Assembly: GCA_014860565.1 (NCBI GenBank)
Contig: JACZJN010000115.1
Coordinates: 1-59,568, forward strand
Length of the DNA: 59,568 bases
Reading direction: 5' to 3'
Source: Bacteroidota bacterium
Lineage (GTDB): Bacteria > Bacteroidota > Ignavibacteria > SZUA-365
The notes under the pieces are model-generated. The model did no database searches. It worked only from the letters and a program-made list of their open reading frames with translations, and had not been told where the DNA came from. This document shows positions 6,597 through 56,379 of this stretch, piece after piece. A program made the translations under genes and the position numbers. How positions within the stretch are numbered: position 1 is the first letter of the stretch; every line of letters starts with the position of its first letter.

Positions 6597-9500
6597 CTAC
6601 CGTCTGATGCTGAAGAGCCTTGTATATACCGATGTGGGGGTCGAATTCACGAGGAAATACGCGCCAGGTGCGAAACGCGAGGCCACGATATTGACCCGGT
6701 ACTCGCCTGGCTGGAGCTTCCCCTCGAAGAGCACGGCGATGGTGCGTCCCAGCAAGTCATGCAATGTTATCCGATGCACTCCTCGCTCAATCGATCGGCA
6801 GACAATTGTTGATGCGCTCTCGGCCGGTTGGGGACTGATGGAAACGAATCCTGCCCGCAGACTGGCGTCCACCAGACGCGTGCCTCCTTCTCGGCAGATA
6901 TCGGTGAGCAGGAATCGGCCATTCTCAAGTACCACGTCCGCATCGAGATCCTCTATCCGGCTGTTCCCGAGCAACAACATGGTTTCTTCCTTGCGGCCAA
7001 GCATGACCTGAAATGGCAGCAGCGTAACGGACTCGATTCTGCCTGCCGCCATCTCGAGCTGAAGAGGTACGGTGCGTACTCCTGCCTCATCAACCCCTTT
7101 CACCGATCCGAGGGGATAGAGAAGCGAGGCGTCGAAACGCAGCGACGTAGTGACGCGCAGCACTCGATCGAGCGTTCCGCTTTCTTCGAGCGATGTGCGA
7201 ACCCGAATCTGTACTGTATCACCCGGGGCGGCGGAGGCATCCTCGACGGAGATGCGCATGGCCGTTGCTGCCCGTTCGGCACGTACGGGAACGAGCAGGG
7301 TTGCACATACCGGCTCGGTGTCGAGAATCAAATCATCAGAATACCGTCCCGGAATATCCGGATCATCAAACTCGACGAGCACCGTCGCGAATGCGCCGGG
7401 TTGCAGCAGCAGGGGGAGTGCCGCGTAAGTGCGAAATCTCTGGCCGGTGGTGAAACGCAGTCCGGTCACCGTCAGGGGCAATGTGCCAGTGTTCCAGATC
7501 AGAATCGAATCCCGGGCGGGGAGTGAGGCGGGACCGTGCAGACCGAATTCCACAACTGGCGGAGCTCCGAGAGCCGTGGTGTCTGTAACCACCGTAAACG
7601 GTACGGACCAGTTTGTCGCACAGGGAGAGGAAAGCAGGGAAAAACGGATGTTTCCAACAATCCTTCCCCCGTGCTTCGCAGCTTCATACCGAAGGGTCAC
7701 ACGCATCGAATCACCGGGAGCGATTGGAAACGGGAAGTCTCCCGGTAACGGAGAGAGGAGATGCAGTTCCGACACATCCGGGACAGGCAGCTGCAGGCGT
7801 GTTGTGCGCGTCCCTGTATTGCGTACCACAATCGTGCGTTCGTTGTCTCGGTTGGAACAGAGATCGATACGCCCAAAATCAAGCCCCGCATCGCTTGTCG
7901 CATACCCGACGCTGTCGATCACCGCCACGAGTGGAATATCGATCTTCGTGTCATGCAGGGAAATATCATCGGTCAGAATGCGGAGCGTGTCAAGGTAGGG
8001 GCCGGCCGGTCTGCCTCCTCCGTGAAAATGCAGGGGGATGCGTGCGGTCGATAGCGGCTCGATAATCAGCGGAAAACGGATGGCTGAATCAATCGTGAAC
8101 ACTCCCCCGGCGTCGTGAAACGTAGCAGACCGCAGCGTGAGCCGGGAGGAAGAGTGGTTCGGAATGTCAAGCGTGTCAGACGTGGTATCCTCGCAGGCGG
8201 CAGTGACGAAGGTGAGAGCGAGAGGCTGCGCCGTCTTCACTTCGGCCTCGGAATTATAGAGGAGATTCGTGGCCCCCTGGGCCAGCACGAATCGCGGTTG
8301 GGCGGAGAACCAGTCGACTACAGGATTCGGCTGCTCCTGCACGGCAACCATGTAATACAATTGGTCGTTTCCCGGAAGTTCCAGTGCGATGCTCCAGTGA
8401 TTCCCGGGATAATCGAACACTGTCGCGAACTGCGTCCATGGCATGGACGCGGATTTGATATACAGACGCAGGCGATTGCCGTCCCCCGTCCCTGAAAAAG
8501 AAAATGATGACCGACGGATGAAACGTGTCGTGTCCGTGGTGGGACCATGGTATTCCCATGAACTCGATGGGATGACCGAGGCGGTTGTGACAGTGCCGTC
8601 GAGACGCACACGACCGCGTCCGAACAATCCCGTAGCGTCGGCTCCGGTCGTGGTGATGGTGCTCCTCGTGATCCTGGTCTTCCCGCTAACAAGTACTCCA
8701 CCGCCGGATCCGCTTCCGCCTGGATGGAGGTGGGAGGAGTTCGAATCCACTCCGTCTGCGGACACCCGTAGTCCATCGATGCGTAAGGCGGAAATACTGA
8801 GCCCACCGCCGCCACCGCCACCGGGAGAGGCACATTCACCCAATACAGAGGGTGTTCCGCTTGCACCACCTGACCCACCTGCGAGCGGGATGAGTTGCGG
8901 ATTCCCGTGTGCACGTCCGCAGGATGGCACAGCGGACGATCCGCCATCACTGCCATACCCGGCATGCGAAGGCGGGTTGCCCGCTTCGGTCGCGCTCCCC
9001 CCGCCAAATCCCCCGTTCGTGCTACAAGCACGAGCGAGGTCGCACGCGCTGCCGGAACTGCCGAACGGATGACCTGTTCCACCTCCGGCGTTATAAAAGC
9101 CGTTCTCAATTCCCCCCGCGATCCCATTCAGCGATCCTCCGCTGGCGCCACGCTGTGGGCCGCTTCCGAAGGCGGGTACGGTGAATCCTCCGCCGGCGGC
9201 CGGCATACCGCCGGGGTTTCCGCCACCGGGGCCACCAGATGTAAATCCATCCCCTCCCCGCTCACCGTTGAGAATACTGAAGCAAAAGCTGCCACCACCG
9301 CCACCGCCACCCGGACCGCCATGCGTTCCCTGTGCGGAGACGTCCAGGACAGCGTTTCCCGTTCCGCGAATTTCCCCTCTCGCGATCAACACAAACGGTA
9401 GGTATCCCTGGTTCCCAGTGGTACTGGAATCGCAGTCCTGTGTCGACACATGCACTCGCGCATTCTCGATATCCATATTCTCGATGATCATCGCCCCGCG

Positions 9501-10028
9501 CGGGGAACGCACGCCGTATGCGCCTTCACCTAGCATGACATCGGAACGGATGCGTGGCAGTCTCGTCGGTGCCACGATGCGGAACAACACTGTATCCCCC
9601 GAAAAACCGTTGCGGATGAGACAGAGCGGGACGGTACATTCTCCCCCCACCTTTCTCCAATCAGACGAGGGAGGAGCGAGATACGGAAGCACGAAAATCT
9701 GCGAAGAGAACATCCTCCCGTTCCACCCTACGATCACAGGACCGATCTTGACCTTGTGTGTATCCGCGGGATGCACACAGACCAGGCGCAAGCTGCTGCC
9801 GTCATTGTTGAGATACAGTCCGTCCAATCCGAAATTCCCGATCGCATCGACGGGACCGATGCCCTCCACGTACGTGCTCATGCCCGGCGTTCCGATATCC
9901 GGCGTGATGTAGGACAAGCGCTGGGCCTCGCCGCGGAGGGAGCAGATCGTGCACAGCAGAATAATCACGAAAAGCCGGGTTCGTTTCTTCGTGCGAGTAC
10001 GCAAATTCTTTGCTTCGCTGTATCCCAT
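6597..10028 (-). CDS. Exported glycine-rich / choice-of-anchor-D protein with T9SS sorting domain
   Basis: This is an 1143-residue exported surface protein. A basic n-region and hydrophobic core form the signal peptide (to about residue 35, GEAQ). The N-terminal domain opens ITPDIGTPGMSTYVEGIGP, an IPT/TIG-like segment. Residues about 230-430 are extremely glycine-rich, with many GGxGGG runs, and could form a polyglycine-type or beta-roll shell. Residues about 600-915 are HYDIN-like Ig repeats, 920-1045 resemble a cohesin-type sandwich (LRFDASLLYPL), and 1060-1143 is a T9SS type A domain. The ATG lies 3 nt after the stop of the preceding gene, so translation is probably coupled. A structural surface role is inferred; there is no catalytic motif. 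Confidence 0.88.
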   Translation of the reverse strand: MGYSEAKNLRTRTKKRTRLFVIILLCTICSLRGEAQRLSYITPDIGTPGMSTYVEGIGPVDAIGNFGLDGLYLNNDGSSLRLVCVHPADTHKVKIGPVIVGWNGRMFSSQIFVLPYLAPPSSDWRKVGGECTVPLCLIRNGFSGDTVLFRIVAPTRLPRIRSDVMLGEGAYGVRSPRGAMIIENMDIENARVHVSTQDCDSSTTGNQGYLPFVLIARGEIRGTGNAVLDVSAQGTHGGPGGGGGGGSFCFSILNGERGGDGFTSGGPGGGNPGGMPAAGGGFTVPAFGSGPQRGASGGSLNGIAGGIENGFYNAGGGTGHPFGSSGSACDLARACSTNGGFGGGSATEAGNPPSHAGYGSDGGSSAVPSCGRAHGNPQLIPLAGGSGGASGTPSVLGECASPGGGGGGGLSISALRIDGLRVSADGVDSNSSHLHPGGSGSGGGVLVSGKTRITRSTITTTGADATGLFGRGRVRLDGTVTTASVIPSSSWEYHGPTTDTTRFIRRSSFSFSGTGDGNRLRLYIKSASMPWTQFATVFDYPGNHWSIALELPGNDQLYYMVAVQEQPNPVVDWFSAQPRFVLAQGATNLLYNSEAEVKTAQPLALTFVTAACEDTTSDTLDIPNHSSSRLTLRSATFHDAGGVFTIDSAIRFPLIIEPLSTARIPLHFHGGGRPAGPYLDTLRILTDDISLHDTKIDIPLVAVIDSVGYATSDAGLDFGRIDLCSNRDNERTIVVRNTGTRTTRLQLPVPDVSELHLLSPLPGDFPFPIAPGDSMRVTLRYEAAKHGGRIVGNIRFSLLSSPCATNWSVPFTVVTDTTALGAPPVVEFGLHGPASLPARDSILIWNTGTLPLTVTGLRFTTGQRFRTYAALPLLLQPGAFATVLVEFDDPDIPGRYSDDLILDTEPVCATLLVPVRAERAATAMRISVEDASAAPGDTVQIRVRTSLEESGTLDRVLRVTTSLRFDASLLYPLGSVKGVDEAGVRTVPLQLEMAAGRIESVTLLPFQVMLGRKEETMLLLGNSRIEDLDADVVLENGRFLLTDICREGGTRLVDASLRAGFVSISPQPAESASTIVCRSIERGVHRITLHDLLGRTIAVLFEGKLQPGEYRVNIVASRFAPGAYFLVNSTPTSVYTRLFSIRR

Positions 10029-10031
10029 CGA

Positions 10032-10904
10032 TCACCTGTCACCTGCATGCGTCGATCCTGAAGCGTTGTACACTGTCGGGGCTTCAGCGAGGATCATGCC
10101 CTGGATCGCAAGGAAATGCAATGACAGCAGGGGAGCGGGTCGAGGCGGTTTCATTCCCTCCGGCCAGAGCAGCTCGCCGGGCCAATGAACGGTGTAAGCG
10201 CCAGGATTGCGGAGGACGATTGTCAATAGCTGTCCGGGATCGGCATTCCTGAAACTGACTTCGGTGGGACCTTCTATCCTTACATCGATGACGTTCGATG
10301 ACTTCCAGTCTATCACCATTTCCCCGCTCCCCTTCAGCTGTGCGGCATCCGCGAACATTCGGCGACTCGTTCGGACCTGTCCCGCAACGTTGAGCATGGT
10401 GAAATCCGGCGAACGGTCCAGTGTTAAGTCCACCTGGGGGCTGTCGCCACCGGCGGCGGCGCCGCCGTGATGGAAGGTGAAATGATCGTAGGCCCAGCTC
10501 ATGGACACGCCCTGTCCGTCATTGCGGTCAATCGCCGTTTTCATGCGACGGACGAAGGCGCCGCGCGCGGTGCGCACATCGAGGTTGTGTTCGAACCAGC
10601 CGTGATAGTCGTTTTCGAAATTCAGCCATATTCCCCCGGACGTCGTGTCGAGTCCCAGCGGATTCCAGCCGAGGTAACTTACGTCGTTCGCCGCCCCGCG
10701 CTCCCCTTCCCCGTCGTACCGTCGGAGAAAGAAGCCGAAAGCCGGCGTCTCACCCGCGACCGGCGAGAAAAGGAACGGGTACCGGTTGTGCATGCGCCGC
10801 TGCCGCATGCCGGATGCCATTTCCTCCCCGGTCTCCTGACCGTGAGTATTGCCGACCCAGAGCAGGGCGAGCAGAAGAACAGCGGCGAGGCAGCGGGCAG
10901 GCAT
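10032..10904 (-). CDS. Exported beta-domain protein with GWNPLG motif; C-terminal half resembles phage tail-type beta-sandwich
   Basis: This 290-residue protein has a signal peptide (about 1-22, ending THGQ) and no T9SS domain. The central YLGWNPLG...NLDVR block recurs in the exported protein at 38128-39078, so the two are distant paralogues. The C-terminal part (GEMVIDW...IEGPTEVSFRN...TIVLRNPGAYTVHWPGE) has the rhythm of beta-domains in phage tail or fibre proteins, where a strand pair ends in TW(P)xxxxWPxG. Its ATG abuts the TAA of the upstream gene with no gap, and its own stop lies 3 nt before the next start, so it sits inside a coupled cluster. Function unknown; a surface or capping role is a guess. 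Confidence 0.75.
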   Translation of the reverse strand: MPARCLAAVLLLALLWVGNTHGQETGEEMASGMRQRRMHNRYPFLFSPVAGETPAFGFFLRRYDGEGERGAANDVSYLGWNPLGLDTTSGGIWLNFENDYHGWFEHNLDVRTARGAFVRRMKTAIDRNDGQGVSMSWAYDHFTFHHGGAAAGGDSPQVDLTLDRSPDFTMLNVAGQVRTSRRMFADAAQLKGSGEMVIDWKSSNVIDVRIEGPTEVSFRNADPGQLLTIVLRNPGAYTVHWPGELLWPEGMKPPRPAPLLSLHFLAIQGMILAEAPTVYNASGSTHAGDR

Positions 10905-18703: not shown

Positions 18704-20659
18704 TCAGTTTTTCTTGACCACGATGTCGACCGGGAAGGTGCCGGGGGTGACGTACACCCAGTAGCCGCGTCCCTGGTTCATGCGGTTGACGGTCTCGTAG
18801 GTTGCGCCGTTGTAGCCCCAGACGTCGCCCGCGAGGATGCGTCCGGTGACAGGCGTACCACCGACCAGCGTGATCAGGTCAGCGTCGCCGTCGCCATCGA
18901 TACCACGGTCCCAGTTACCAATCGGCGCCAAATCAGGGAGTTTGTCCTCCACGGTATAGTTCGGGCAGCCGATGAGATACCAGCCCTCGGCCGTGGCCGT
19001 GAGCTTGAACTCTTCCACATCACCGCCGTTGACCGATGTTGTCTTCGAAGTGGCGAAATACGCCCAGTAGGCAGGACCGACTTTTACCGTTCCGGTTCCG
19101 TTGATGGTGTTGTACGAAACCCCGTTGTACTCATATACCACGCCGCCGAGCGTGCCCGGGAAGATCGTCGCGACGGTCGAGTCACTTGCGACGAAACGCG
19201 GCACTGAAACGAGGTTCCAGCCGGCGTTGTGGAGGTTGAGCGTACTGGTGGCTCCGCCGACGTACGGCGTGTTCTGAGGATCGAAGTTCGTCCAGTTGGC
19301 GGTCCACTGGCCTGCAAGCGACAACGACGGATCGAAGGCGCCGCGGTACGAGGTCGGAGTGAAAAACCCGGGGAGACCGCTGAAGTCCGTACCTGCACTG
19401 ATCAGTTCCGAACCAGTGGCGGGACGGGGATCCGGTGCGGTGAGGGATACCATGTTGGTCAGCAGCAGAGCGTCCGGCTGACGCGAGAGAAGCGGCGTGG
19501 TGCCCCACTTGTTGCCGTTGCGATTGATCCAGGCGTTGACATTCGGTTTATCCGTCGAGGGGATGCCGCTTGTTTCAACAGAGTCAACAGCTCCCGCATA
19601 CGAGGCAAAGCTGGTATTGCGCACACGGATGTCTTCGTTGGTATACGAAGGGTAATCCATCGAAGCATAGGTCTCGGCATCGCGGAACGACACACTACGC
19701 TCGTAACCGACTACCGCGCTGTTGAGAATGTTCAGCTGCGTACCACGGCGGAGCATGAGAGCGTAATCGAAGCGTTCGGCCGCGGGGACAGTCGTGCTGT
19801 TCGTCCGCTTGGGGCCGATTACCGTGAAGTTCGAGAAGATCGCCTTGGTGCGCGGCGAGGTGCCGTAACAGGAAGAACTTCCGCAGTTGTCGGATTCGAA
19901 CGCACGGGAGTTGTCCGTGGGATCCCAGAAATTCGGATCCTTCATCTGGAAACCAAACTGGATGTTGCCGTTGTAGCCGAAGTCGGTGTCGAAACCGTCA
20001 TCGGTTTCACCCACGGTGACCATGTACTTGCAGTTGACCGTGCCGCCAAAGAACTCGAATCCATCGTCGAAGGAATACGATACCTGGACATGGTCGATCG
20101 TGGTTCCGCTGCCAACGCCGCCGAGCGTGAGGCCGTTAACCTCGTTGTTCAGCTGAAACCGGTATCCGGCAAACTCGATGCGCACGTACTGAAACTCGCC
20201 GCTGTTGTCCGTCGGGTTCGAACCGCCGTATGAGCCGGGAACGATGCCCCCTTCAATAATCGGGTTTGTCTGGTTCGTCGGAGCGTTACCAAGAATGACC
20301 ACACCGCCCCAGTCGCCCGGCTGACGGGTACCGACGGGCTTGGCGCTCGTGAAGATGATCGGACTGGTCGCGGTTCCGGTCGCATGAATCTGCGCGCCCG
20401 GGGAGATACAGAGCACCGCGGCGGAGTCGCCGACGATCGTCGTTCCTGCCGGAATGGTAATCGAATACGTCGGGTCCACAAAGTAGACACCCGTAAGAAC
20501 GTACACATTCGATGCAGAGAGCGTGACATTACTTGTCTGATGATACACCGTGCGGCCCGAACCCACGCCGGGACCAAGAACCACGGTGGTTTGCGCGAAT
20601 GCCTGGCCCGCGAAGAGCATAATGGCAGCCGCAGCAAGCGCGAGGGAAATTCGTTTCAT
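18704..20659 (-). CDS. Exported parallel-beta-helix protein paired with a TonB receptor, ending in a two-lobed GWNLVS domain
   Basis: The 651-residue protein has a signal peptide (about 1-22, ending AFAQ) after a GGAG site. Residues about 25-440 look like a right-handed parallel beta-helix (TIPAGTTIVGDSAAVLCISPGAQIHATG, GDWGGVVILGNAP, FEFFGGTVNCKYM, DDGFDTDFGYNGNIQFGF). Such proteins commonly sit beside a TonB-dependent receptor in Bacteroidota. The end (about 470-651) has no T9SS tail but carries the two-lobed GWNLVSVP...AYWAYF / GWYLIGCP...GRGYWVYV module. The TonB receptor gene lies upstream on the same strand, 398 nt away. It is likely an outer-surface capture or accessory protein for the receptor; the ligand is unknown. 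Confidence 0.82.
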   Translation of the reverse strand: MKRISLALAAAAIMLFAGQAFAQTTVVLGPGVGSGRTVYHQTSNVTLSASNVYVLTGVYFVDPTYSITIPAGTTIVGDSAAVLCISPGAQIHATGTATSPIIFTSAKPVGTRQPGDWGGVVILGNAPTNQTNPIIEGGIVPGSYGGSNPTDNSGEFQYVRIEFAGYRFQLNNEVNGLTLGGVGSGTTIDHVQVSYSFDDGFEFFGGTVNCKYMVTVGETDDGFDTDFGYNGNIQFGFQMKDPNFWDPTDNSRAFESDNCGSSSCYGTSPRTKAIFSNFTVIGPKRTNSTTVPAAERFDYALMLRRGTQLNILNSAVVGYERSVSFRDAETYASMDYPSYTNEDIRVRNTSFASYAGAVDSVETSGIPSTDKPNVNAWINRNGNKWGTTPLLSRQPDALLLTNMVSLTAPDPRPATGSELISAGTDFSGLPGFFTPTSYRGAFDPSLSLAGQWTANWTNFDPQNTPYVGGATSTLNLHNAGWNLVSVPRFVASDSTVATIFPGTLGGVVYEYNGVSYNTINGTGTVKVGPAYWAYFATSKTTSVNGGDVEEFKLTATAEGWYLIGCPNYTVEDKLPDLAPIGNWDRGIDGDGDADLITLVGGTPVTGRILAGDVWGYNGATYETVNRMNQGRGYWVYVTPGTFPVDIVVKKN

Positions 20660-20828: not shown

Positions 20829-20900
20829 GCAGAGATCACCAGGTTTTCCTCGATTTTCATCCGGTGCGTCAACACCGGGCGTTTCGTCACGGAGAAACGC
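20829..20900 (-). repeat. Structured intergenic element, copy A (UUGACG-loop hairpin plus AACCUGGUGAUC box)
   Basis: Read on the minus strand, a first hairpin (GCGTTTC/GAAACGC, 20900-20879) abuts a second perfect hairpin CCGGTG-TTGACG-CACCGG (20878-20861). About 18 nt later comes AACCTGGTGATCTCTGC (20845-20829), followed by GGCG-CAA-CGCC and a TGTCTTTTT run at about 20814. Copy B (24246-24316) keeps the loop, inner stem and box while the outer stem bases change. The element lies in the 398-nt gap between the TonB receptor gene and the beta-helix gene. It could be a cis-acting RNA or a dispersed palindromic repeat. Confidence 0.6.
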
Positions 20901-21057
20901 GTCCGTCATGTGTAATTGTCCCCTCCTTCCGCTTCATCTTGTTTGTCTGACATGCTTCAATCTAATTCGAGCATGTTATCGCATTGGGGAGAGGAGGTAA
21001 GGACTCTGTTTTACTTTCCTTACATGCTCACGCTTCGCTCATGCCTGCTTATTCTGA

Positions 21058-23778
21058 TCAGAATGCATAGGACATTTTCAATGAGAACACCGAACCGTTG
21101 CGGATCTTCCGATATGGATCGCCGGTGCGAGTTTCGAATACGATTTCCTTCGGCAGGAGGTCATGCGCGCTCAATTTCATTTCCAGCGCGGAGGTGATTT
21201 CCTGCGTTACGGTTAAGTCCAGAACGCCACGCGCAAGTTCATACACGTCCGATTCGCGATAATCCCCGACAGCTTCGAGGCGTTTTCCGTACGAATTGTA
21301 CTGCAGGTTCAACGAGGTCCCGAACGTGGGCTCACGGAAGGTCAGGTAGAGATTGACCATGTACGGTGACTGGCCCTGCATCTCGCGGAACTGTGTCCGG
21401 AATTCGTCGCCATATGCGCCGCCACCGAGATCCACCTTGTAGCCCTGTTGGTATGCAATCTCGGATTGCACGATCGTGAAATTCCCTCCCAGGATCAGGT
21501 TCCCCCAGTAGTGCCCGATGAAATCGAAAGATTTCCGCAGCTCGAATTCCCAACCGCTGTTTACCCCGGTGGGAGAGTTGAACCACGTGCGTTCCGGATT
21601 CGAGGAGATGAGAATCTTCATTTCGATTGGATCCGTCAGTTCTTTACGGAACCAGCTGACGGCGAGCACCTCTCCCAGGCCGGGAAACAATTCCACCCGT
21701 GCGTCGATATTCTTCGATAGTGCGCGTTTGAGCAGCGGATTTCCGAATGTCCCTTCGTAGATGCTGTAATCATAAAAATAGAATGAAGCCAGTTCGCGGA
21801 ATTCAGGCCGGTTCACGGAATGGCTGTACGCAAGTCGAACGTTGAGTTCGTCGGTGGCCTGCCATGTGAAATTCATCGACGGCAGAATATCGACGTTTCG
21901 TACCTCCGCCCGGTACGGTTCGTTCGTGGAGAACGGACTCAGTGTGTACACGAGCTGTTCGGAGTTTTCCACACGCGCACCGCCCGTGAGGCGAAACCGT
22001 TGTTCGAGTACGGAAAATGGTACGTCCATCATCGCGTAATACGCGATGAGCGTGTGCTCGCCCCAGTACTTGTCGCGTGCGTCGGAGAGGACGGACGTCG
22101 TGAATTTATCAGGACCGTAATTCCCCGGCGTAAAAATGCTGTCGAGCGGAAGGAGGAGCAGGTCGAAATTCCTGCTTCCGCGTTCGAGTTCGTTGATGAA
22201 AAATGTGATGTCGTAGTAGCGTTCGCGTTTCTCGAACACTCCCCCCAGCTTGATTTTTCCGAGATCCCCGATCGGCATCGATGCGTCCATTCCCGCCATG
22301 CGGGAGAATTCGTCGAGATTCGACCATGAACGATCAGCGAGCGAGAGTGCCCAGACATCCTCATTGACCTCCTGGAAGATCGATTCCTTGCGATCAGGCT
22401 CGTCGGCGACGGACTGTGTATAGGCCATGCGCCACTCGAAATTCAAAGCTCCAACGGATTTGAGCAGATGTTCGCCCGAAAGCTGCGAGACAAGCACCCG
22501 GCGTTCGTCCCACTCGGTGATGCGTACATCCGAGGGATACAGGTTATCGCCCTGAACAGCCATCCGTGTCAGCTTGTCCTCGGCCGACTGGTTGAAACTG
22601 TTTTTCCAGCTGATCTTGTTCACTCCGGCGAGTTTTGCGCTCATGTTGAAAATTCCGCCCCAGAGTACATTGTACTTGTCGCGCTGACCATTTCCCGTGA
22701 GGATGGTGGTTCCCCCTTCGATGTTATTGTATTCCGTTTCCTCGCGGCTGTAGCCATTGCGATACGTCAGCGATCCGATCATTCCGAGCTCCGCCGATTC
22801 GCCCAGGAAGTAGCGGTCACCTGCGGAGACATCAAAAGCACTGTTGACAGGCGCCTTTGAAGAACCCTGTACCCACGTGTTGGGAAGAGACTTTCCCAGG
22901 TCATAGTTGTTCAACTGTGTATTCGGTGCGCCGCGGCTGCCGTCATCGATCCCCAGCCAGTCGCTTCCGCCACCCTGAGACACGAGGGCGTCTTTCCCCG
23001 TGATCTGCGTGTTCCAGGAACTGGAAATCCCGATCTTCAACATCGGATTGTCCGGAAAATCCAGCGTGTTCATGCGCACGAGTCCCCCGGTGAAATCCCC
23101 GGGCAGATCCGGTGTGGCCGTTTTCGTGACAACGGTGTTATCCACCATATTGGCCGGAACGAGGTCGAAGGCGAAGCTCTTTTTATCGACATCGGTGTCG
23201 GTGCTCGTCACCGTCACACCGTTGAGCTGCGTGCTGTTATAACGGTCGGTGACGCCGCGAACATAGATGAATTTGTCGTCGACGATGGTCACACCGGTGA
23301 CCCGCTTGAGGGCGTCGCTCGTCGTCGCCGCCGGTGAAAGTTTCACCTGTTCCGCGCTGAAGCCGTCGCCGATGGTGGATTCCGCCTTTCGTGCGGCGAG
23401 CAACGCGCTTTCCGTGGCGATTTCACGATCGGCGGAGATGACGACCTCCTCGGTGCTGAAGACGTCCTCTGCCAGTGTGAAGTCTGCCTTCACATTTTCA
23501 CCGGCGGTGACGGTGATATCTTTCAGCGTTCTGGTCCCGTACCCGACGTAGGAAACACGCAGCGTCACCTTTCCGGGCTCCAGGTTGCGTATGATGTACT
23601 TGCCATCCATATCCGTGGAGGAACCGGTCGATGATCCGACCAGCAACACGCTCGCGCCTACCATCGCCTCGCCGGATTTTGCGTCGCGGACCGTGCCGTG
23701 AATGCTTCCCTTCTGCGCCTGCACACCCGGTGCGAGCGCAGCAATGAGAAGAACGAGAATCAGTATCGTTCGTGTCAT
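21058..23778 (-). CDS. TonB-dependent outer-membrane receptor with carboxypeptidase-regulatory-like N-domain
   Basis: The 906-residue protein imports an unknown ligand across the outer membrane using TonB energy. A signal peptide (1-21, ending VQAQ) is followed by a carboxypeptidase-regulatory-like domain (about 23-105: GSIHGTVRDAKSGEAMVGAS, DGKYIIRNLEPG), a plug domain (about 115-245: SDALKRVTGVTIVDDKFIYV, RGVTDRYNSTQLNGV, FTGGLVRMNT) and a beta-barrel with the usual LAYSHSVNRPEFRELA block near residue 660. The C-terminus ends in aromatic MSYAF, typical of barrel proteins. The beta-helix protein gene follows on the same strand. The upstream leader has a terminator and two copies of a structured element, so attenuation is plausible. 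The substrate cannot be named from sequence. Confidence 0.93.
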   Translation of the reverse strand: MTRTILILVLLIAALAPGVQAQKGSIHGTVRDAKSGEAMVGASVLLVGSSTGSSTDMDGKYIIRNLEPGKVTLRVSYVGYGTRTLKDITVTAGENVKADFTLAEDVFSTEEVVISADREIATESALLAARKAESTIGDGFSAEQVKLSPAATTSDALKRVTGVTIVDDKFIYVRGVTDRYNSTQLNGVTVTSTDTDVDKKSFAFDLVPANMVDNTVVTKTATPDLPGDFTGGLVRMNTLDFPDNPMLKIGISSSWNTQITGKDALVSQGGGSDWLGIDDGSRGAPNTQLNNYDLGKSLPNTWVQGSSKAPVNSAFDVSAGDRYFLGESAELGMIGSLTYRNGYSREETEYNNIEGGTTILTGNGQRDKYNVLWGGIFNMSAKLAGVNKISWKNSFNQSAEDKLTRMAVQGDNLYPSDVRITEWDERRVLVSQLSGEHLLKSVGALNFEWRMAYTQSVADEPDRKESIFQEVNEDVWALSLADRSWSNLDEFSRMAGMDASMPIGDLGKIKLGGVFEKRERYYDITFFINELERGSRNFDLLLLPLDSIFTPGNYGPDKFTTSVLSDARDKYWGEHTLIAYYAMMDVPFSVLEQRFRLTGGARVENSEQLVYTLSPFSTNEPYRAEVRNVDILPSMNFTWQATDELNVRLAYSHSVNRPEFRELASFYFYDYSIYEGTFGNPLLKRALSKNIDARVELFPGLGEVLAVSWFRKELTDPIEMKILISSNPERTWFNSPTGVNSGWEFELRKSFDFIGHYWGNLILGGNFTIVQSEIAYQQGYKVDLGGGAYGDEFRTQFREMQGQSPYMVNLYLTFREPTFGTSLNLQYNSYGKRLEAVGDYRESDVYELARGVLDLTVTQEITSALEMKLSAHDLLPKEIVFETRTGDPYRKIRNGSVFSLKMSYAF

Positions 23779-23795
23779 GCGGACTGTATCTCTGT

Positions 23796-23807
23796 GTTAT
23801 GTGTGTG
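23796..23807 (-). promoter_or_regulatory. CACACACATAAC leader motif, 17 nt before the TonB receptor start codon
   Basis: This 12-mer is identical to the one before the beta-helix gene, with the same 17-nt spacing to ATG. No clear ribosome site lies between it and the ATG (only CAGAGA), so the motif may matter for translation or for control of both genes. Confidence 0.5.
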
Positions 23808-23885
23808 CTGTTCCTCTGCCGTGCGGAATGACGAAACGCAATGGCGTGCATTCGAGTGCGGGGGAACCGTGGGAAGGCATGTCAT

Positions 23886-23928
23886 AAAAAAACGCGCGGC
23901 TCTTCCTTTGGGAGAGAATGGCCGCGCG
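23886..23928 (-). terminator. Intrinsic terminator or attenuator before the TonB receptor gene
   Basis: On the minus strand an 8-bp GC stem (CGCGCGGC/GCCGCGCG) encloses a second stem (CTCT..CC/GG..AGAG) and is followed by seven Ts. It is the only classic intrinsic terminator with a long T-run that I see in the window. It stands 108 nt before the TonB receptor ATG and 455 nt after the porin stop. Its place just before the receptor suggests attenuation. It could also simply stop read-through from the porin gene. Confidence 0.75.
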
Positions 23929-23992
23929 CACTCTGACCAGCGTGCATCCGAAAGGATGCAGCGTGATACCGGGTATGGGGGAGTAGGACATC

Positions 23993-24033
23993 GATCACCA
24001 GGTTCGTTTGTTTTGCAGTCCGTCAAAACCGCA
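23993..24033 (-). repeat. Structured intergenic element, diverged copy C
   Basis: Minus-strand hairpin TGCGGT (24033-24028) with ACTGCA (24019-24014) closes a loop that keeps the TTGACG core. GATCACCAGGTT on the plus strand (23993-24004) matches the conserved box of copies A and B. A further hairpin (TGCATCC/GGATGCA) and the T-run terminator follow. The stem sequence is quite different from A and B while the pairing is kept. The match is weaker than between A and B. Confidence 0.4.
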
Positions 24034-24245
24034 TCCCGCAGTGCGAAGAAACAATTGCGTCCATTCCTTCCGCGAGGTTCTCAAACATAGTATCCCGACT
24101 GTTAGCACAGCGTTACACATCGGTGAGAATTCGGTACCGTGAAACGGAGAGCTTGATCCGGTATTCCTTCGCTTGCAATTACGCGTCTCCACGCATGCGT
24201 TACTTGAACGAGATGGCCAAAGTCCCTATCTTGTGTGTGCAAACG

Positions 24246-24316
24246 GCAGGCTCCGCCTGCAGAGATCACCAGGTTCTCATCACGTTTGCCCCGAGGCGGT
24301 GCGTCAACACCGCCTC
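24246..24316 (-). repeat. Structured intergenic element, copy B
   Basis: Minus-strand order: GAGGCGGTG-TTGACG-CACCGCCTC, a perfect 9-bp stem (24316-24293); then AACCTGGTGATCTCTGC (24276-24260); then GCAGGC-GGA-GCCTGC (24260-24246), a 6-bp stem. The stop of the porin gene lies about 68 nt upstream and the TonB receptor ATG about 470 nt downstream. The 605-nt gap 23779-24383 therefore holds copy B, copy C, the terminator and the shared leader motif; I see no gene in it. Confidence 0.6.
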
Positions 24317-24383
24317 ACTTTCGTTTCTCCCCGCCCCACCGATCCCCGCGGAACCACTCACCCATACAACCGACTTACGCGCT

Positions 24384-39105: not shown

Positions 39106-42100
39106 TTACCTCCGCAGTTGCAGCGCCTGCACCGTCGACGTATCGCCCGCGCGGACGTAAACGAAATACCATCCGTTCGGGGAATCCGCCAGATCGACGG
39201 AGAGCGAACCCGTCGGCGCGGGACCGTCGAAGAAGTACCTTTCCCGTCCGAGAATATCGGTGATGCGGATCACGGCGGAAGCGGCCGCCGGGTCGGTGAA
39301 TTTCACCGTCACGATTCCCGTCGTCGGATTCGGATAGAGCAGTACGGATTCACCGGGAACGGGCGCGTCGTCGAGACCCAGCACCGTCACATCATACTGA
39401 TCCGACCATGCCTCGCAGCCGAAGGCGTTTTTCACACGCACCCGATACCCGCCGGGCTGGTCGACCAGATATGATCGCCGTGTCGCGCCCGTGAGTTCAT
39501 GTCCGTCACGGAACCACTGCCATTCATCAGCATCGGTCGCAACGAGCGAATCCAGCTGCCGGGTAATCACCGGCTTCGCGGGCAAGGGAATGACCACGAC
39601 CTGGAGGGTGTCGGAAAAACCGGGACGTCCGTCGCCCGACATTGTCTGGCACCAGTACGACCCCATCTGCCGCACGCTGATGCTGCGTGTCGTTTCGCTC
39701 GTGTTCCAGAGATACGATAGATACCCCGAGCCTGCATCCAGGGTGACGGAATCCCCGTCGCAGAACATCGTGCTGCCACCTGCGGCAAGGCGGAAGGAGA
39801 ATGGAACCCCGGGAATACCTGGCAACGAGAGCGTTGTCGCACAGCGATGCGGATCCTGGTTCCGCGCGAGAAGATCGAGATACACGCTCGCCGTGTCCAG
39901 CGGGAACGGCGACGGATCATGCCACAGCAGCCATCGCGCCGTTCCGCCTTTTCCCGGATCGAGAGTAGCCGGAGCAAGCATCTTCGTGACCTGTGTCGGG
40001 GCATCGGGTGGAGCGATGGAATATCCTGGCGGGAGCGTGATTGTCGCCTGGACCTCTTCCGCGGGTGCATCGCCGGTATTCGTCACGGTGACGGTGATGG
40101 GAAATGGCATGGGGAGATAGGTCCGGTTCACCGAATCGACCACGACCGGTGGGTAACTGAGACTGCAGTGGAGTTCCGGTGATGGAAATTGCAGTGCGGC
40201 GATGGGAAGATATTCCGAGCATTCGTTGGTGCCGCCACCGTCGTCGACGCTCTCGACCGTGATCAGGGGCATACGGCGTTTCCCTCGCGGTGGTGCGTAC
40301 AGCTTCCATTCCAGAAGAAGTGTGCGTCCCACGTCGAGGAGCGTATCGGGATGCACCAGCGCGGGATTCGGTGACGACGGATCGAGCCCGAGGTCCTGCG
40401 CCGGGAAACGCAGCTGCACGCGATCCACCCGGGCGGGGATGATCGATCTATTTGTCAGTTCGTACCGTACGGAAAAGGGATTCGGCTCGACGTCCGTCTC
40501 CCCCGCATTCAAACCGAGAGAGTCCGGCATCACCAGTGCACATTCCCATTCAAGCGGAACACCGGGAATGCGCACGCCGCACGAGGTCACCACGGTGTCG
40601 ATGAGAACGCCGGTGCCGTCCTCCGCGCTTACATGGAAGCTCAGAACGGGATTCTGTTCGGATCCGACGAGGCCGGTCCAGGCAACCGTCCACTCGATCT
40701 CCGGTACCAGATTGCCTGGTTTCCATGGCATCATGTCGGAAGGGACAAACGTGACCGTCTGCCGCTGCGTCGGGGGATCGAAGGCCAAACCCGACGGAAG
40801 CAGCAATCTCCCGGTGACATTGCGGAGAGGGACCGAGCCATCATTGATGCACGTCAGACGTACCGTAAAAGGATTAGGAGTGTATTGCAGGAGTTTTGCA
40901 TCGAAATGGAGAGAATCAGGAACGTAACAGCGCGGTGCGAGATGCAGTCCCTCCTGGACGGGTATGATCAGGCTGTCGTCACAGACCACGCCGTCATCGC
41001 CGGGGAACTGTCCGGCCTGCACACTGATTTTGAATCGCCGCTCGACTTGCGTCAATGGATGCTCCACCATCCACGTCACGCGACCCGTATCGCCCGGCTG
41101 CAGGATCGCCGGCTGAAGCGCCTTGGTGAAATGGTCGGGGGCGTCAGGACCGGCAAGTGAAAGTCCCGTCGGCAGCATGAGTGTTGCGTCGATGGGTGCG
41201 GAAGCGATCGTGCCGACATTGACGACTTCATAGACCACCGGAACGGGCATCGGATCGTAGCGCCCGTTTGCACTGTCGGCAAGCACGGGTGGAATCACAA
41301 GACGGCATTCCAACAACGCCGCATCCCGAAGGACGAGCACGGAGCCGGGATCGAAGCGAGGGATCCAGCATCCCTGCGAGAACGTGGGACCGACTACCTC
41401 GAGCGGCAGCAGCAGGCTGTCTGTTATCCCGGGGAGAGGGCTCGCCCGGAAGTGGAACTGCAGAATGCTCCGACTCCCAGTGGGCGACCATGGTTTCTGA
41501 ATCATGACCGCCGTGCCGTTCGCAACTCCGGCGGTGGCAATCGACTGCGGAGTGATGGGCGAACCCGGGGAGGGTGCGACCCAGAGCAGCTGAAGCGCCT
41601 GGCGATCGTAGAGTAGCGTGAAGTTGAGCGGATATAGGTCTAACGGTTGTTGCGCTTCTACGGCGAGATTGACAACAACCTCCTCACCCGAGAACGCGAT
41701 CGCGTCATCGAGCGTGAACTGCAGATCTGCAAAGGTCGTGGAATCCAGCGGCGCCCGGTATGTCTTGGTTTTGACGTCCGTCCCGCCGCAGAAATTCTTC
41801 AGCTGCAGCTCCACCGTCCGCATCCCACCGTCCGCACAGTCGCGCTCGTACGTAATGACGCATTCCTGGAAGCCTTGGAAAATGATCGTTGTAATTTCCT
41901 GGTATATCGCGGCCAGCTGTCCCGCGTTCGGTGTCTGGTAATACTTCCCGCCCGTCAGCTGCGCGATCATCTCGAGCTCGGTCGAGTTGATACTCGAACC
42001 CAGTCCGATCGTGAACACGCGGATACGGTGGCGGTTCGCCAGAGAAATGATTTCTGCTACGGTCCGCGTGGACGAAGCATCGCCGCCGTCAGTCATCACG

Positions 42101-42687
42101 ATCACCGCACGGCACGGGTTGACGCCGTTGTTGATCAGTTCGATGATCCCCGCATAGATTCCGTCCCACACCGCTGTCGCACCCGTGGCCGGGAGCGCAT
42201 CTACCGCCGCATGCAGGGCTAGCTTGACCGTTGTCATCTGCTGATACACGGTCACCACATGGGTAAACCATACAATCGCCGCTTCGTCGACGACCCCGTC
42301 CATCAGGTCAATGAACGCATGCCCCGCCTGCTTGGCACCCGTATTTCCCGAACCCGCCATCGATCCCGATGCATCGAACACCAGAGACGCCGATAGCGCG
42401 CAGCGGATAGTCGGATCGGGACACCACATCGTGAAGTCCTTTACCTCCTCCCCGTTCTCGAGAATCCGGAAATCCGGTTTCGTCATATTGTAAGCCGGAT
42501 TTCCGTCGCAGCCGACCGAGTAGTACAACTCGATTGTCGGAAAGTTGACGGTGACCCGTTTGAAATTCAGGTTCGGCTGTGCCTGCAAAGCCGATGAAAT
42601 GCCGAACAGCAGCAGCGCGGCGAACAGGAAATGGACGCGCGGCCCCCGCCGACGTTTCCTTCCTCCCAGTACGTCATGAAATCCCAT
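39106..42687 (-). CDS. VWA-domain surface protein 5 of the tandem array, T9SS sorting domain
   Basis: The start is ATG 42687, with AGGAGG upstream and a hydrophobic signal (HFLFAALLLFGISSALQAQ); the frame is open to 42981 over the end of the next gene. The 1193-residue product has a VWA domain (about 85-275) with an intact metal site: DASGS, then TAVWDG and MTDGGD. A cysteine-paired Ig region follows (CVITYERDCADGGMRTVEL, ...DVKTKTYRAPLDSTTF), then several Ig-like repeats (about 300-940: FDAKLLQYTPNPFTVRL), a gliding-type Ig domain (FCDGDSVTLDAGSGYLSYLW, about 985-1060), a second one (QWFRDGHELTGATRRSYLV) and a T9SS tail. It is the last gene of five in a row. A metal-dependent adhesin is the likely role. 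Confidence 0.9.
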   Translation of the reverse strand: MGFHDVLGGRKRRRGPRVHFLFAALLLFGISSALQAQPNLNFKRVTVNFPTIELYYSVGCDGNPAYNMTKPDFRILENGEEVKDFTMWCPDPTIRCALSASLVFDASGSMAGSGNTGAKQAGHAFIDLMDGVVDEAAIVWFTHVVTVYQQMTTVKLALHAAVDALPATGATAVWDGIYAGIIELINNGVNPCRAVIVMTDGGDASSTRTVAEIISLANRHRIRVFTIGLGSSINSTELEMIAQLTGGKYYQTPNAGQLAAIYQEITTIIFQGFQECVITYERDCADGGMRTVELQLKNFCGGTDVKTKTYRAPLDSTTFADLQFTLDDAIAFSGEEVVVNLAVEAQQPLDLYPLNFTLLYDRQALQLLWVAPSPGSPITPQSIATAGVANGTAVMIQKPWSPTGSRSILQFHFRASPLPGITDSLLLPLEVVGPTFSQGCWIPRFDPGSVLVLRDAALLECRLVIPPVLADSANGRYDPMPVPVVYEVVNVGTIASAPIDATLMLPTGLSLAGPDAPDHFTKALQPAILQPGDTGRVTWMVEHPLTQVERRFKISVQAGQFPGDDGVVCDDSLIIPVQEGLHLAPRCYVPDSLHFDAKLLQYTPNPFTVRLTCINDGSVPLRNVTGRLLLPSGLAFDPPTQRQTVTFVPSDMMPWKPGNLVPEIEWTVAWTGLVGSEQNPVLSFHVSAEDGTGVLIDTVVTSCGVRIPGVPLEWECALVMPDSLGLNAGETDVEPNPFSVRYELTNRSIIPARVDRVQLRFPAQDLGLDPSSPNPALVHPDTLLDVGRTLLLEWKLYAPPRGKRRMPLITVESVDDGGGTNECSEYLPIAALQFPSPELHCSLSYPPVVVDSVNRTYLPMPFPITVTVTNTGDAPAEEVQATITLPPGYSIAPPDAPTQVTKMLAPATLDPGKGGTARWLLWHDPSPFPLDTASVYLDLLARNQDPHRCATTLSLPGIPGVPFSFRLAAGGSTMFCDGDSVTLDAGSGYLSYLWNTSETTRSISVRQMGSYWCQTMSGDGRPGFSDTLQVVVIPLPAKPVITRQLDSLVATDADEWQWFRDGHELTGATRRSYLVDQPGGYRVRVKNAFGCEAWSDQYDVTVLGLDDAPVPGESVLLYPNPTTGIVTVKFTDPAAASAVIRITDILGRERYFFDGPAPTGSLSVDLADSPNGWYFVYVRAGDTSTVQALQLRR

Positions 42688-42703
42688 TCCCGTCCTCCTT
42701 GTA

Positions 42704-45700
42704 TCAGTGTACTGTTCCCGACAGCAGCAGCTGCCGTGTGATATTCGTCGAACCGGCAAGCAGCCGGACATGATAGAATCCCGTGGGCAGACCGGAGAGA
42801 TCCAGCCGCAGTTCTCCCTCGCGCGTCGCCGTCGGCAGCGCGCGCCGCAGCAGTTCGCGACCGAGCAGGTCATGAACACTGACGACCGGCTGGCCCGCCG
42901 CGGCCAATGTATACCGCAACGTGACCACACCGCTCGTGGGATTCGGAAAGAGTTCGAAGCGGTCGACCACCGCGGCGGCATCCGCCACGTCGAGCACCGT
43001 CACGTCGAAGGGATCGGACCAGGCCTCGCAGCCGAAGCTGTTCGTCACGCGGACACGATAGCTTCCCGTTTGCGAGGCCGCAAGGTCGCGGGACGTCGCA
43101 CCCGGAATTTCCATTCCGTCGCGATACCACTGCCAGGTGTCCGCATCGGTCGCCGTGAGCCGATCGAGCTGACGCGTGATCACCGGCGTCGCCGGCAGGG
43201 GATGCACCGTGACCGATATCGTATCGGTGATGACGGGACAACCGGGAGGAACCGTCATTTCACAGAAATATGCGCCGCTCCGTCGGACGACGATGCTCTG
43301 CGTCTGCTGACCGTCGGACCAGAGATAATCGATATATCCGCTTCCCGCATCCAGGACGACGGAATCACCGTCGCAGAATGCCGTGCCCCCCTGCACAGCG
43401 ATGGTCGCTTTCTGCGGAGCGGGAGCAAGGACGACAAGGGAGAAGCCGCAGGAAACGGGAGGCATCGGTTGGCCGTTGGCAAGATTGCCGTTCGCCTGCA
43501 CGGAAATGAAGACCGTCGTATCGCGACAGATTATTTTCCCCAAGCGCGCGAGCCATGTCAGCGTCAGGGAGGTATCCCCCGGCAGCAACGGATTCGGCGT
43601 GACGTATTTTTTCCCCGTCTCACCGATGTCCAGGACAAACCCCGGTGGGAGGAGCGGTGTCACGTTCACCGACGAGAGCGTATCCGGCGTTGCGTTTACC
43701 AATGAAACCCGTATCGGAAAAGGATCGGGGGTCCATGCGCCCGTCTGCGGATCGAAACGGAGGGTGTCCGGACCGTAGCAGCGCAACTCCAGGTTCGGGG
43801 AGTTCAGCGGCGGTATGACGATCGTCTTTTCACAAAATGAGGAATCGGCGTTGGCGGATTTCACCCAGATCCGTACCTGGTACGATTTCTCCACTGTCGT
43901 CGGCGCGTGCTGCAGCATCCATTGCGCCTGCCCCTGCTGGTTCGGATGCAGCAGCGAAGGCAGCAGCCGCTTTGTCGACGATTCGCCCGTGATGAGTTTC
44001 AGCTCCGATGGGACAATGATCGTCGCGAAAACGGAGTCGGTCTGCATCCCGCCCGCGTTGGTCACCGTCACCGTCAAGGGGAACGGCATCGGCACGTATC
44101 GCGCATTCGCGTTGTCGGCGATAACGACCGGAGCATCGATCTCGCATTGGAGAATGGGGTCGGCGGGAGGAACGTACGTCTGAACGCAGCACGAAATATC
44201 CGGATGATTGTCGAACGAGGCGACGATGCAGAATCTCAGCGAGTCACCGCTCGTCCTGCGTTTTGCCGCGACCTGCCAGATCGCCTCCGCAAATTCTCCC
44301 GGGTTCAGGTTCGCCGGCACTCCGTTCTGCACATCCGTGAGCGGCGAGGCCAGCCGGACGTCGCCGGCATTGTATATGATCCTGTACCGCACATTCGTCG
44401 CTTCCCTGTCGCCGGTGTTGAACACGCGCATGCGCACCGGGAACGGATTCGGCGTGTAATCCGTGATTCCGCGCTGCCACCGCAGTTCCTTCGGCGCGTC
44501 CATGTCGCAGGTGACGATTGGCGCGCGGGGAATGATGCAGATTTCGCCCGAAGCGATGACCGGGATGAAACACCCCTGCTCAAACGCCGCGTTGCCCGCC
44601 GACACGTCACAGCATGTCGTATCCAGCGGATCCGATGCCGTGAAGACAAACTCCAGGAGCATGCCGCTGCCGGCGAGCAGCTTCCGATCCATCGTGGCGA
44701 TCCGCACTCCGCCGGGTACCGGAGTCACCGTGAGCGGAACGCCCTGGAGCAGGGATCCCGGGGGAGTCTGCACGCTTTTCAGCTGCGCACACAGCGAGTC
44801 GCTGAGCAGCGTAAAGGAAAACGGATACAACATCTCGTTATTCAGCGGCGACACGAGATTGAGCGGCACCGTGATTTCCGTACCGCCCCGGCCCTGCGCA
44901 TCGCCGAGTTCCAGATTCAGATTCGAAAAGGTTGTGGAGTCCAGCGGCGCCCGGTAGGTCTTGGTCTTGACGTCCGTCCCGCCGCAGAAGTTCTTCAGCT
45001 GAAGCTCCACCGTCCGTATGCCACCATCGGCGCACTGACGCTCATACGTGATCATGCATTCCTGGAAGCCCTGGAAAATGATCGTTGTAATTTCCTGGTA
45101 TATGGCAGACATCTGTCCCGCATTCGGCGTCTGATAGTATTTGCCCCCGGTCAGAAGTGCGATCAGTTGGAGTTCCGTCGCGTTGATGCCCGTGCCCAGT
45201 CCGATGGTAAACACCCGGATGCGGTGGCGGTTCGCCAGGGAGATAACCTCCGCTACCGTCCGCGATGATTGGGAATCACCGCCGTCGGTCATGACGATCA
45301 CCGCGCGGCACTGGTTCACCCCGTTGTTGATCAGTTCGATGATGCCTGTATAGATGCCGTCCCACACCGCGGTGAAACCCGCCGCGGGAAGTGCGTCCAC
45401 GGCGGAATGCAGCATCGGTTTGACCGTCGTCATCTGCTGAGCGACCGTCGCCACCTCGTTGAACCAGATGATCGAGGCCTCATCCACAACGCCGTCCATC
45501 AGATTGACGAACGCGTGTCCCGCCTGCTTCGCGCCGTCGTTGCCGGCACCCGCCATCGAGCCCGAGGCATCGAACACGAGCGAAACCGAGATCGCACACC
45601 GTACCGTCGGGTCCGGACACCACAGTGTGAAGTCCGGAACCTCCACACCATTCTCAAATATCTTGAAGTCCTGCTTCGTCATGCTGTAGTCGGGGTTCCC

Positions 45701-45883
45701 GTTGCAGCCGACGGAGAAATACAATTCGACCGTCGGCCAGTTCACCGTGACGCGCTTGAAATTCAGATTCGGCTGCGCCTGCAGTGTCGTCGCTGCGCCG
45801 ATAAGCAGCAGTGCGGCGATCAGAAAAAGGACGTGCGTCCCCCGACCGTATTTCACTGTCCTGGAAATGTCATGATTCGTCAT
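42704..45883 (-). CDS. VWA-domain surface protein 4 of the tandem array, T9SS sorting domain
   Basis: The 1059-residue protein has an AGGAGG site before ATG 45883 and a signal peptide ending TTLQAQ (about residue 36). The VWA domain (about 85-275) keeps DASGS, TAVWDG and MTDGGD. Ig-like repeats follow, among them CDMDAPKELRWQRGITDYTPNPFPVRM and CEIDAPVVIADNANARYVPMPF, then FCDGDSVVLDAGSGYIDYLW and WQWYRDGMEIPGATS near residues 885-975, and a T9SS tail. The stop is 16 nt before the next gene's start. About 240 bp near its 3' end are nearly identical to the next gene upstream (see the repeat entries). Probable surface adhesin. Confidence 0.9.
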   Translation of the reverse strand: MTNHDISRTVKYGRGTHVLFLIAALLLIGAATTLQAQPNLNFKRVTVNWPTVELYFSVGCNGNPDYSMTKQDFKIFENGVEVPDFTLWCPDPTVRCAISVSLVFDASGSMAGAGNDGAKQAGHAFVNLMDGVVDEASIIWFNEVATVAQQMTTVKPMLHSAVDALPAAGFTAVWDGIYTGIIELINNGVNQCRAVIVMTDGGDSQSSRTVAEVISLANRHRIRVFTIGLGTGINATELQLIALLTGGKYYQTPNAGQMSAIYQEITTIIFQGFQECMITYERQCADGGIRTVELQLKNFCGGTDVKTKTYRAPLDSTTFSNLNLELGDAQGRGGTEITVPLNLVSPLNNEMLYPFSFTLLSDSLCAQLKSVQTPPGSLLQGVPLTVTPVPGGVRIATMDRKLLAGSGMLLEFVFTASDPLDTTCCDVSAGNAAFEQGCFIPVIASGEICIIPRAPIVTCDMDAPKELRWQRGITDYTPNPFPVRMRVFNTGDREATNVRYRIIYNAGDVRLASPLTDVQNGVPANLNPGEFAEAIWQVAAKRRTSGDSLRFCIVASFDNHPDISCCVQTYVPPADPILQCEIDAPVVIADNANARYVPMPFPLTVTVTNAGGMQTDSVFATIIVPSELKLITGESSTKRLLPSLLHPNQQGQAQWMLQHAPTTVEKSYQVRIWVKSANADSSFCEKTIVIPPLNSPNLELRCYGPDTLRFDPQTGAWTPDPFPIRVSLVNATPDTLSSVNVTPLLPPGFVLDIGETGKKYVTPNPLLPGDTSLTLTWLARLGKIICRDTTVFISVQANGNLANGQPMPPVSCGFSLVVLAPAPQKATIAVQGGTAFCDGDSVVLDAGSGYIDYLWSDGQQTQSIVVRRSGAYFCEMTVPPGCPVITDTISVTVHPLPATPVITRQLDRLTATDADTWQWYRDGMEIPGATSRDLAASQTGSYRVRVTNSFGCEAWSDPFDVTVLDVADAAAVVDRFELFPNPTSGVVTLRYTLAAAGQPVVSVHDLLGRELLRRALPTATREGELRLDLSGLPTGFYHVRLLAGSTNITRQLLLSGTVH
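42938..43180 (-). repeat. Near-identical tract shared with 46133-46375 (gene conversion)
   Basis: This segment encodes the WQWYRDGMEIPGATS Ig domain and the start of the T9SS tail. It differs from 46133-46375 at only a few positions up to about 43160, while surrounding DNA of the two genes is far more diverged. This pattern fits recent gene conversion or recombination between neighbours. Confidence 0.8.
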
Positions 45884-45898
45884 CCCGTCCTCCTTGAA

Positions 45899-48751: not shown

Positions 48752-48918
48752 GATGTCCTCACATGAAAAAATGAACTGGTAAATTGCGTTCGAAACAGCG
48801 CTTCTGCCGCCCCCGGGGCGTACTGTACGATAGTCGCGCTGCGTGGCTGGATGGTAGGTCAATGTAGCAATCCTGGCAGTACATGTCAACACGAAGCATG
48901 TTCGTCGGGAACGACCGA

Positions 48919-50940: not shown

Positions 50941-50955
50941 CGGTACTCCGTTGTG

Positions 50956-50972
50956 CCGCCCTTTCAGGGCGG
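50956..50972 (-). other. Hairpin in the leader of VWA gene 2
   Basis: CCGCCCT and AGGGCGG pair with a 3-nt loop, 16 nt upstream of the ATG at 50940. It lies in the 141-nt gap between array members 1 and 2, together with the heptamer array and the hairpin at 51061. Confidence 0.5.
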
Positions 50973-51023
50973 AAGCCGCACTGGATTGCGAAAGTTCCGG
51001 GTGTCGTTCAAGAACTTTCTTCA

Positions 51024-51058
51024 TCCTACGTCCTACGTCCTACATCCTACATCCAACA
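51024..51058. repeat. Five-unit heptamer tandem repeat TCCTACR
   Basis: Units TCCTACG (x2), TCCTACA (x2) and a variant TCCAACA follow each other without gaps. The repeat is intergenic, just after the hairpin that ends VWA gene 1. It has the form of a short simple-sequence tract that can expand or contract. Confidence 0.75.
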
Positions 51059-51060
51059 TC

Positions 51061-51081
51061 GCGATTCGCGAAGCGAATCGC
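51061..51081 (-). terminator. Perfect hairpin immediately after VWA gene 1, no U-tract
   Basis: GCGATTCGC and GCGAATCGC form a perfect 9-bp stem with a 3-nt loop, starting directly after the stop codon at 51082. The heptamer repeat follows and no T-run is present. It probably protects the upstream message or partly terminates it. Confidence 0.6.
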
Positions 51082-56329: not shown

Positions 56330-56379
56330 TGTACAACAACAACGGGCCGTCTCACAAGACGACCCGTTGTTGTTGTACA
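56330..56379 (-). terminator. Very long hairpin after the M1 aminopeptidase-like gene
   Basis: A 17-bp perfect stem (56330-56346 with 56363-56379) based on GTTGTTGTT repeats holds an inner CGTC/GACG stem with a TCACAA loop. It starts 47 nt past the stop at 56426. No T-run follows directly; an AT-rich tract comes about 35 nt later. It is a probable transcription terminator, possibly for both directions. Confidence 0.7.

Follow-up and report, generated by a model that had tools for sequence, protein, structure and literature searches.

The question raised by this locus is what three related intergenic sequences, copies A, B and C, do beside the gene of a TonB-dependent receptor. In the window (the whole stretch of DNA that was analysed, 59,568 nucleotides) the order along the minus strand is the gene of a 433-aa protein (with a sub-threshold match to Alginate_exp), copy B, a promoter, copy C, the TonB receptor gene, a second promoter, copy A and the gene of a 651-aa protein, for which no Pfam or NCBIfam family is found. 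Elsewhere in the window, a 23-nt inverted repeat at 56330-56379 (96% complementary, with a 4-nt loop; TGTACAACAACAACGGGCCGTCT) forms a strong hairpin, and at 39380-53781 related stretches of 40-300 nt recur every ~3.2 kb, as expected for tandem paralogous genes. The minus-strand features of the receptor locus are the following.

24082-24116, minus strand: predicted receptor promoter, with the boxes GTAACGC-TGTG-CTAACAG and with TACTATG
23993-24032, minus strand: copy C, putative receptor leader element, with a hairpin at 24015-24032 (loop TTGACG) and the pairing site AACCTGGTGATC at 23993-24004
23797-23991, minus strand: possible leader ORF of 64 codons, its ATG following GGTGATCG
23886-23931, minus strand: predicted intrinsic terminator, GCGCGCGGC..GCCGCGCGTTTTTTT, between copy C and the receptor ORF
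21058-23778, minus strand: TonB-dependent receptor of 906 aa (Pfam TonB_dep_Rec_b-barrel, Plug and CarbopepD_reg_2), proposed target
20958-20980, minus strand: predicted promoter of the 651-aa gene, ATAACA-N10-TAGATTG
20829-20900, minus strand: copy A, putative leader element of the 651-aa gene, with hairpins at 20879-20900 and 20861-20878 (loop TTGACG) and the pairing site AACCTGGTGATCTCTGC at 20829-20845
18704-20659, minus strand: 651-aa secreted protein, proposed second target

The initial annotation had described two clear copies and a third, sharing a UUGACG loop, and their sequence, coordinates and pairing are verified here. In copy B (24246-24316), as in A and C, a minus-strand hairpin with the loop TTGACG is followed by the 12-mer AACCTGGTGATC, which is exact at 20834-20845, 23993-24004 and 24264-24275, on the minus strand in all three. 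The stems differ between the copies and the pairing is kept, in agreement with the proposal of a structured RNA with compensated stems. When compared with shuffles, the fold z value of copy A is -3.0 on the minus strand, and that of copy B is -4.6 on the plus strand and -2.4 on the minus strand. For copy C by itself (66 nt) the fold has no advantage over shuffles; the entire C leader has a z value of -2.4.

A second proposal was a family of dispersed palindromic (REP-like) or mobile repeats, as could be suggested by the presence of several intergenic hairpin copies. The covariance model R2, which comprises the hairpin and the 12-mer and is built from the three copies and the copies of relatives, scores B at 63.5, A at 58.7 and C at 47.4 bits, and besides these it finds no match better than 20 bits (E 0.03) across the 4.75 Mb genome. 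With just three R2 matches in the whole genome, clustered at a single locus, the element is above chance and is not a dispersed repeat, and in the relatives the copies are found at the same locus with different stems. The copy number therefore refutes a REP-like or mobile repeat, for which the remaining probability is practically negligible. The exact 12-mer is seen at four other places in the genome. Three of these are coding coincidences, being without the hairpin and reading AAC CTG GTG ATC in frame (Asn-Leu-Val-Ile), and the fourth, on contig C194, reaches an R2 score of only 12.3 bits. A cmscan of the region against Rfam (E up to 5) identifies no relevant family, riboswitch or known cis-regulatory RNA, as is consistent with the element being unreported.

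The copies are at the receptor locus in this genome, and in relatives the element is found at the matching locus; the proposed linkage to the TonB gene is upheld. There are six carrier genomes in all. Besides this genome (G000), A, B and C are all present at the matching locus in G011 (JAGTUZ010000135) and G007; G006 has A and B, without C; G012 (PABJ01000003) has A, B and a partial C; copy A is thus kept in these four. G002 (JAFGKR010000025) has B, the 12-mer of C without the hairpin, and an additional 12-mer site. The range of the element is narrow, covering one family and one genome of a neighbouring family. Samples of 385 further genomes from the class and of nearly 400 from across the phylum yield only weak matches, and the inspected ones looked spurious. 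Weak matches of the sRNA model (described below) in genomes of other families (G067, G102, G049, G098, G054 and G499) are plain GC-rich terminators or unrelated sequence and have no seed. No convincing common motif is detected in the receptor and partner leaders of more distant relatives. Two further observations concern the carrier genomes. The extra 12-mer site of G002 (L108, 2646-2698; GAACTTGGTGACTC) is located behind the promoter-like TACATTTG and possibly marks a third target leader there, and the open frame of the TonB receptor of G007 (L066, 3169-5133) is shortened to 654 aa, perhaps by a frameshift.

Several properties identify A and C as probable leader elements. TAACA boxes and TAnnnTG precede C in three genomes and A in two, at distances that correspond between the genomes. 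The receptor promoter layout recurs ahead of the receptor genes of relatives, and that of the 651-aa gene recurs in G007 at equal distance from the hairpin. When considering the helices of A and C, picked by hand, there are nine G-U pairs on the minus strand and zero on the plus strand, four of the nine being the U.G pair that closes the C loop. The stretch 23870-23975, which includes the terminator region of C, has a fold z value of -4.6, and an intrinsic terminator is present between C and the receptor start codon in G000, G011 and G007. It can be asked whether the shared sequence is instead a transcription-factor site in the DNA, with the palindrome as operator, given that GGTGTTGACGCACC is palindromic and near promoters. 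Such a site is highly improbable, as the stems vary with the pairing retained and with G-U pairs on one strand, the sites come some 60-110 bases after the TAACA promoters, and the spacing between hairpin and 12-mer varies widely.

The suggestion that the element is a cis-regulatory RNA is kept for A and C as putative leader elements. It would apply to all three copies if they were one minus-strand RNA, riboswitch-like or protein-binding, B then being part of a long leader or of the upstream gene's 3' region. This agrees with the hairpin loop and the 12-mer being common to all copies in the same order and orientation, with the placement of A and C in leaders, and with the terminator after C, which is frequent for riboswitches. 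However, copy B has its own predicted promoter and terminator on the plus strand, and it looks like an apparently undescribed small RNA (sRNA) gene of ~85 nt on that strand, opposite to the genes, with the following features.

24204-24232, plus strand: predicted sRNA promoter (copy B), TTG-N20-TATCTT, of the Bacteroidota sigma-ABfr type
24239-24326, plus strand: putative sRNA gene (copy B), with an outer stem GCAAAC/GTTTGC, an inner hairpin, the seed GATCACCAGGTT at 24264-24275 and the terminator
24293-24326, plus strand: predicted sRNA terminator, a 9-bp hairpin with the loop CGTCAA (24302-24307) and a T-rich tail

The sRNA covariance model R1, built without G002, scores copy B at 95.6 bits here and at 64.8 bits in the held-out G002. 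In all six genomes TTG is found 35 bases, and TA...T 12 bases, before GCAAAC, as seen in a script check of five genomes and in aligned rows for all six. No other column is invariant within the 40 bp before B, where the six sequences are otherwise 28-65% identical, and the background rate of TTG-N20-TA...T in these loci is 0.8-2.9 per 10,000 positions. As G002 is found by a model that lacks it, the promoter at the same position in G002 is an independent test. These elements have the form described for Bacteroidota promoters, with TAnnTTTG at -7 and TTTG near -33 (PMC7366714). A terminator scan selects the copy B hairpin on the plus strand, and the first ten tail bases of the six genomes include 4-7 T on this strand versus 0-2 on the minus strand; the tail is T-rich in five genomes and poor in G002 (4 of 10). 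In the helices of B, also picked by hand, there are three G-U pairs on the plus strand and one on the minus strand. Judged by the wobble pairs, the minus strand is the one read in A and C, and the plus strand, with less weight, is the one read in B.

A single cis-regulatory RNA is therefore rather unlikely. Its B copy would have a promoter and a terminator on the opposite strand in six genomes, would be upstream of the receptor promoter and so outside its leader, and folds better on the plus strand. Moreover, the 12-mer differs between genomes and matches among the copies of each genome, unlike a ligand-binding core, and a match in Rfam is absent.

With a conserved predicted promoter and a terminator on the plus strand at B, and with A and C as complementary leader elements on the minus strand, the shared sequence is best read as that of an sRNA and its targets. 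A and C expose the UUGACG loop, and the terminator loop of B, CGUCAA, is complementary to it; A and C also carry AACCUGGUGAUC, to which GAUCACCAGGUU of B is complementary. The seed of B and the 12-mer of C are complementary, and with an extended seed the match reaches 17 nt in A. This matching sequence varies between the genomes and agrees within them, being ACTTGGAAAAC in A and B of G012 and TTGGTGAACCCAGA in A and B of G006. Cofolding of the A leaders with the RNA of the same genome gives a gain of 29-45 kcal/mol versus a mean of 6-13 kcal/mol for shuffled RNA. The own RNA is the best partner in four of the five genomes; the exception is G000, where it trails the best by no more than 1 kcal/mol. 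With this method, in which kissing loops cannot be represented, the C leaders show little gain over shuffles, and a preference for the own RNA is seen only in G012 and G002.

The likeness of A and B could stem from copying instead of pairing. Copying also yields similarity, so complementarity alone is no proof of pairing. If B were the plus-strand sRNA and A and C were its degenerate duplication sisters, not its targets, the complementarity would be expected from copying alone, and A indeed scores 42 bits on the plus strand with R1. However, A and C are without the TTG-N20-TA promoter on the plus strand, their G-U pairs favour the minus strand, A and the local B have drifted without losing their complementarity, and A and C are at set distances behind their own promoters; such sister copies are consequently quite improbable. 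Pairing is the better reading because the polarity of B and A is opposite.

On the evidence base of six genomes, it is likely that B is a plus-strand sRNA and that it targets A and C in the leaders made from TAACA promoters, the most likely effect being repression. The sequence itself shows the elements and how they are conserved, the polarity of promoter and terminator, and the complementarity; from it we infer the transcription of B, the pairing and the repression, as well as the link to Pho. The sRNA would start at ~24239 from its own sigma-ABfr-type promoter and stop at its own terminator. It may then make two contacts with each leader, one between the CGUCAA terminator loop and the UUGACG loop and another between GAUCACCAGGUU and AACCUGGUGAUC. 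The most likely effect would be that the receptor and its partner are repressed as long as phosphate is in sufficient supply.

In leader C, the sRNA is predicted to favour the terminator ahead of the receptor gene. It is possible that it blocks the GGUGAUC-AUG ribosome site of the leader ORF: the site in C shares bases with a GGTGATC that stands before an ATG, and GGTGATC finds its complement in GGATCACCTCCTT, the 3' end of the 16S rRNA in this genome. In three genomes GGTGATCGATG is present, with a leader ORF of 64, 50 and 24 codons, which in G000, G011 and G007 extends as far as the terminator or past it. Because the leader ORF reaches the terminator, binding of the sRNA could halt leader translation and let the terminator form. 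In these three genomes the start of the leader ORF is conserved and the peptide is not, which makes the leader-translation step speculative. In G012, the partial C match is immediately ahead of the start codon of the receptor, and there the sRNA may act at the ribosome site of the receptor itself. A more specific proposal is that the sRNA and the two leader hairpins, matched to it through a kissing loop and a linear seed, co-evolve as a set, and that the sRNA acts on a phosphate-type receptor through transcription attenuation coupled to translation: translation of the leader ORF would normally prevent the receptor terminator, and the sRNA would block the leader ribosome site. This full scheme is doubtful and is put forward as unlikely.

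The phosphate link comes from the promoters. The promoter layout that precedes A and C is shared by the pst operon of this genome (CTAACACGACCGTAACATTCGACTGGTAGCTTTG), which suggests the Pho regulon, with the receptor gene and the 651-aa gene as putative members. A strict tandem TAACA pattern gives one match in four genomes, at the receptor gene of G026, and none in this genome; this pattern is too strict. A relative of the 651-aa protein with 38% identity is encoded beside the pst genes and ties this protein family to phosphate. The pst operon with the TAACA/TAnnTTTG layout is on contig C19 (L182; 7338, minus strand, and 9191-10447), where the gene of the 651-aa relative adjoins it.

Control of outer-membrane receptors by sRNAs is known for sugar uptake in gut Bacteroides. 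The DonS antisense RNAs of Bacteroides, of 78-128 nt, are divergent beside a susC receptor gene and repress there (PMC7366714). Copy B, on the plus strand, is likewise divergent to a TonB-type receptor on the minus strand; in G002, another ORF is located between the two. DonS is cis-antisense to its susC homolog, whereas copy B does not overlap its target and is upstream of the receptor promoter at 24082-24116, with ~230 bp between it and the C site beyond that promoter, and with the second target, A, 3.4 kb away. FopS and GibS of Bacteroides thetaiotaomicron have a sigma-ABfr promoter and their own terminator and pair with the 5' regions of outer-membrane receptor mRNAs (PMC11697453). Copy B resembles them in its sigma-ABfr-type promoter, its own terminator and its predicted pairing with receptor leaders. 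FopS is a 14-copy family that targets many susC start codons with a single-stranded 5' seed (PMC11697453). Unlike FopS, B is a single copy with its seed in a closed domain, its terminator loop may pair, and its sites are upstream leader elements. No match to the FopS/GibS family is obtained by cmscan of the region (E up to 5), in an Rfam release which may lack this family.

In the CopA/CopT antisense pairs of plasmid copy control, the two RNAs are products of one DNA segment. Complementary hairpin loops and a linear segment could start and lock the pairing here as they do there, but in this locus the RNA and its targets are separate chromosomal copies. Literature searches on sRNAs in Ignavibacteria and on Pho-TonB control in Bacteroidota returned nothing relevant. 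Copy B is most likely a further variant of the receptor-controlling sRNAs, on the theme of DonS and FopS. If this is true, the control of receptors by sRNAs would extend to an uncultured Bacteroidota lineage and apparently to phosphate-linked receptors, in a locus where the co-evolution of RNA and target may be read from sequence and where the regulator and both targets are within 3.5 kb.
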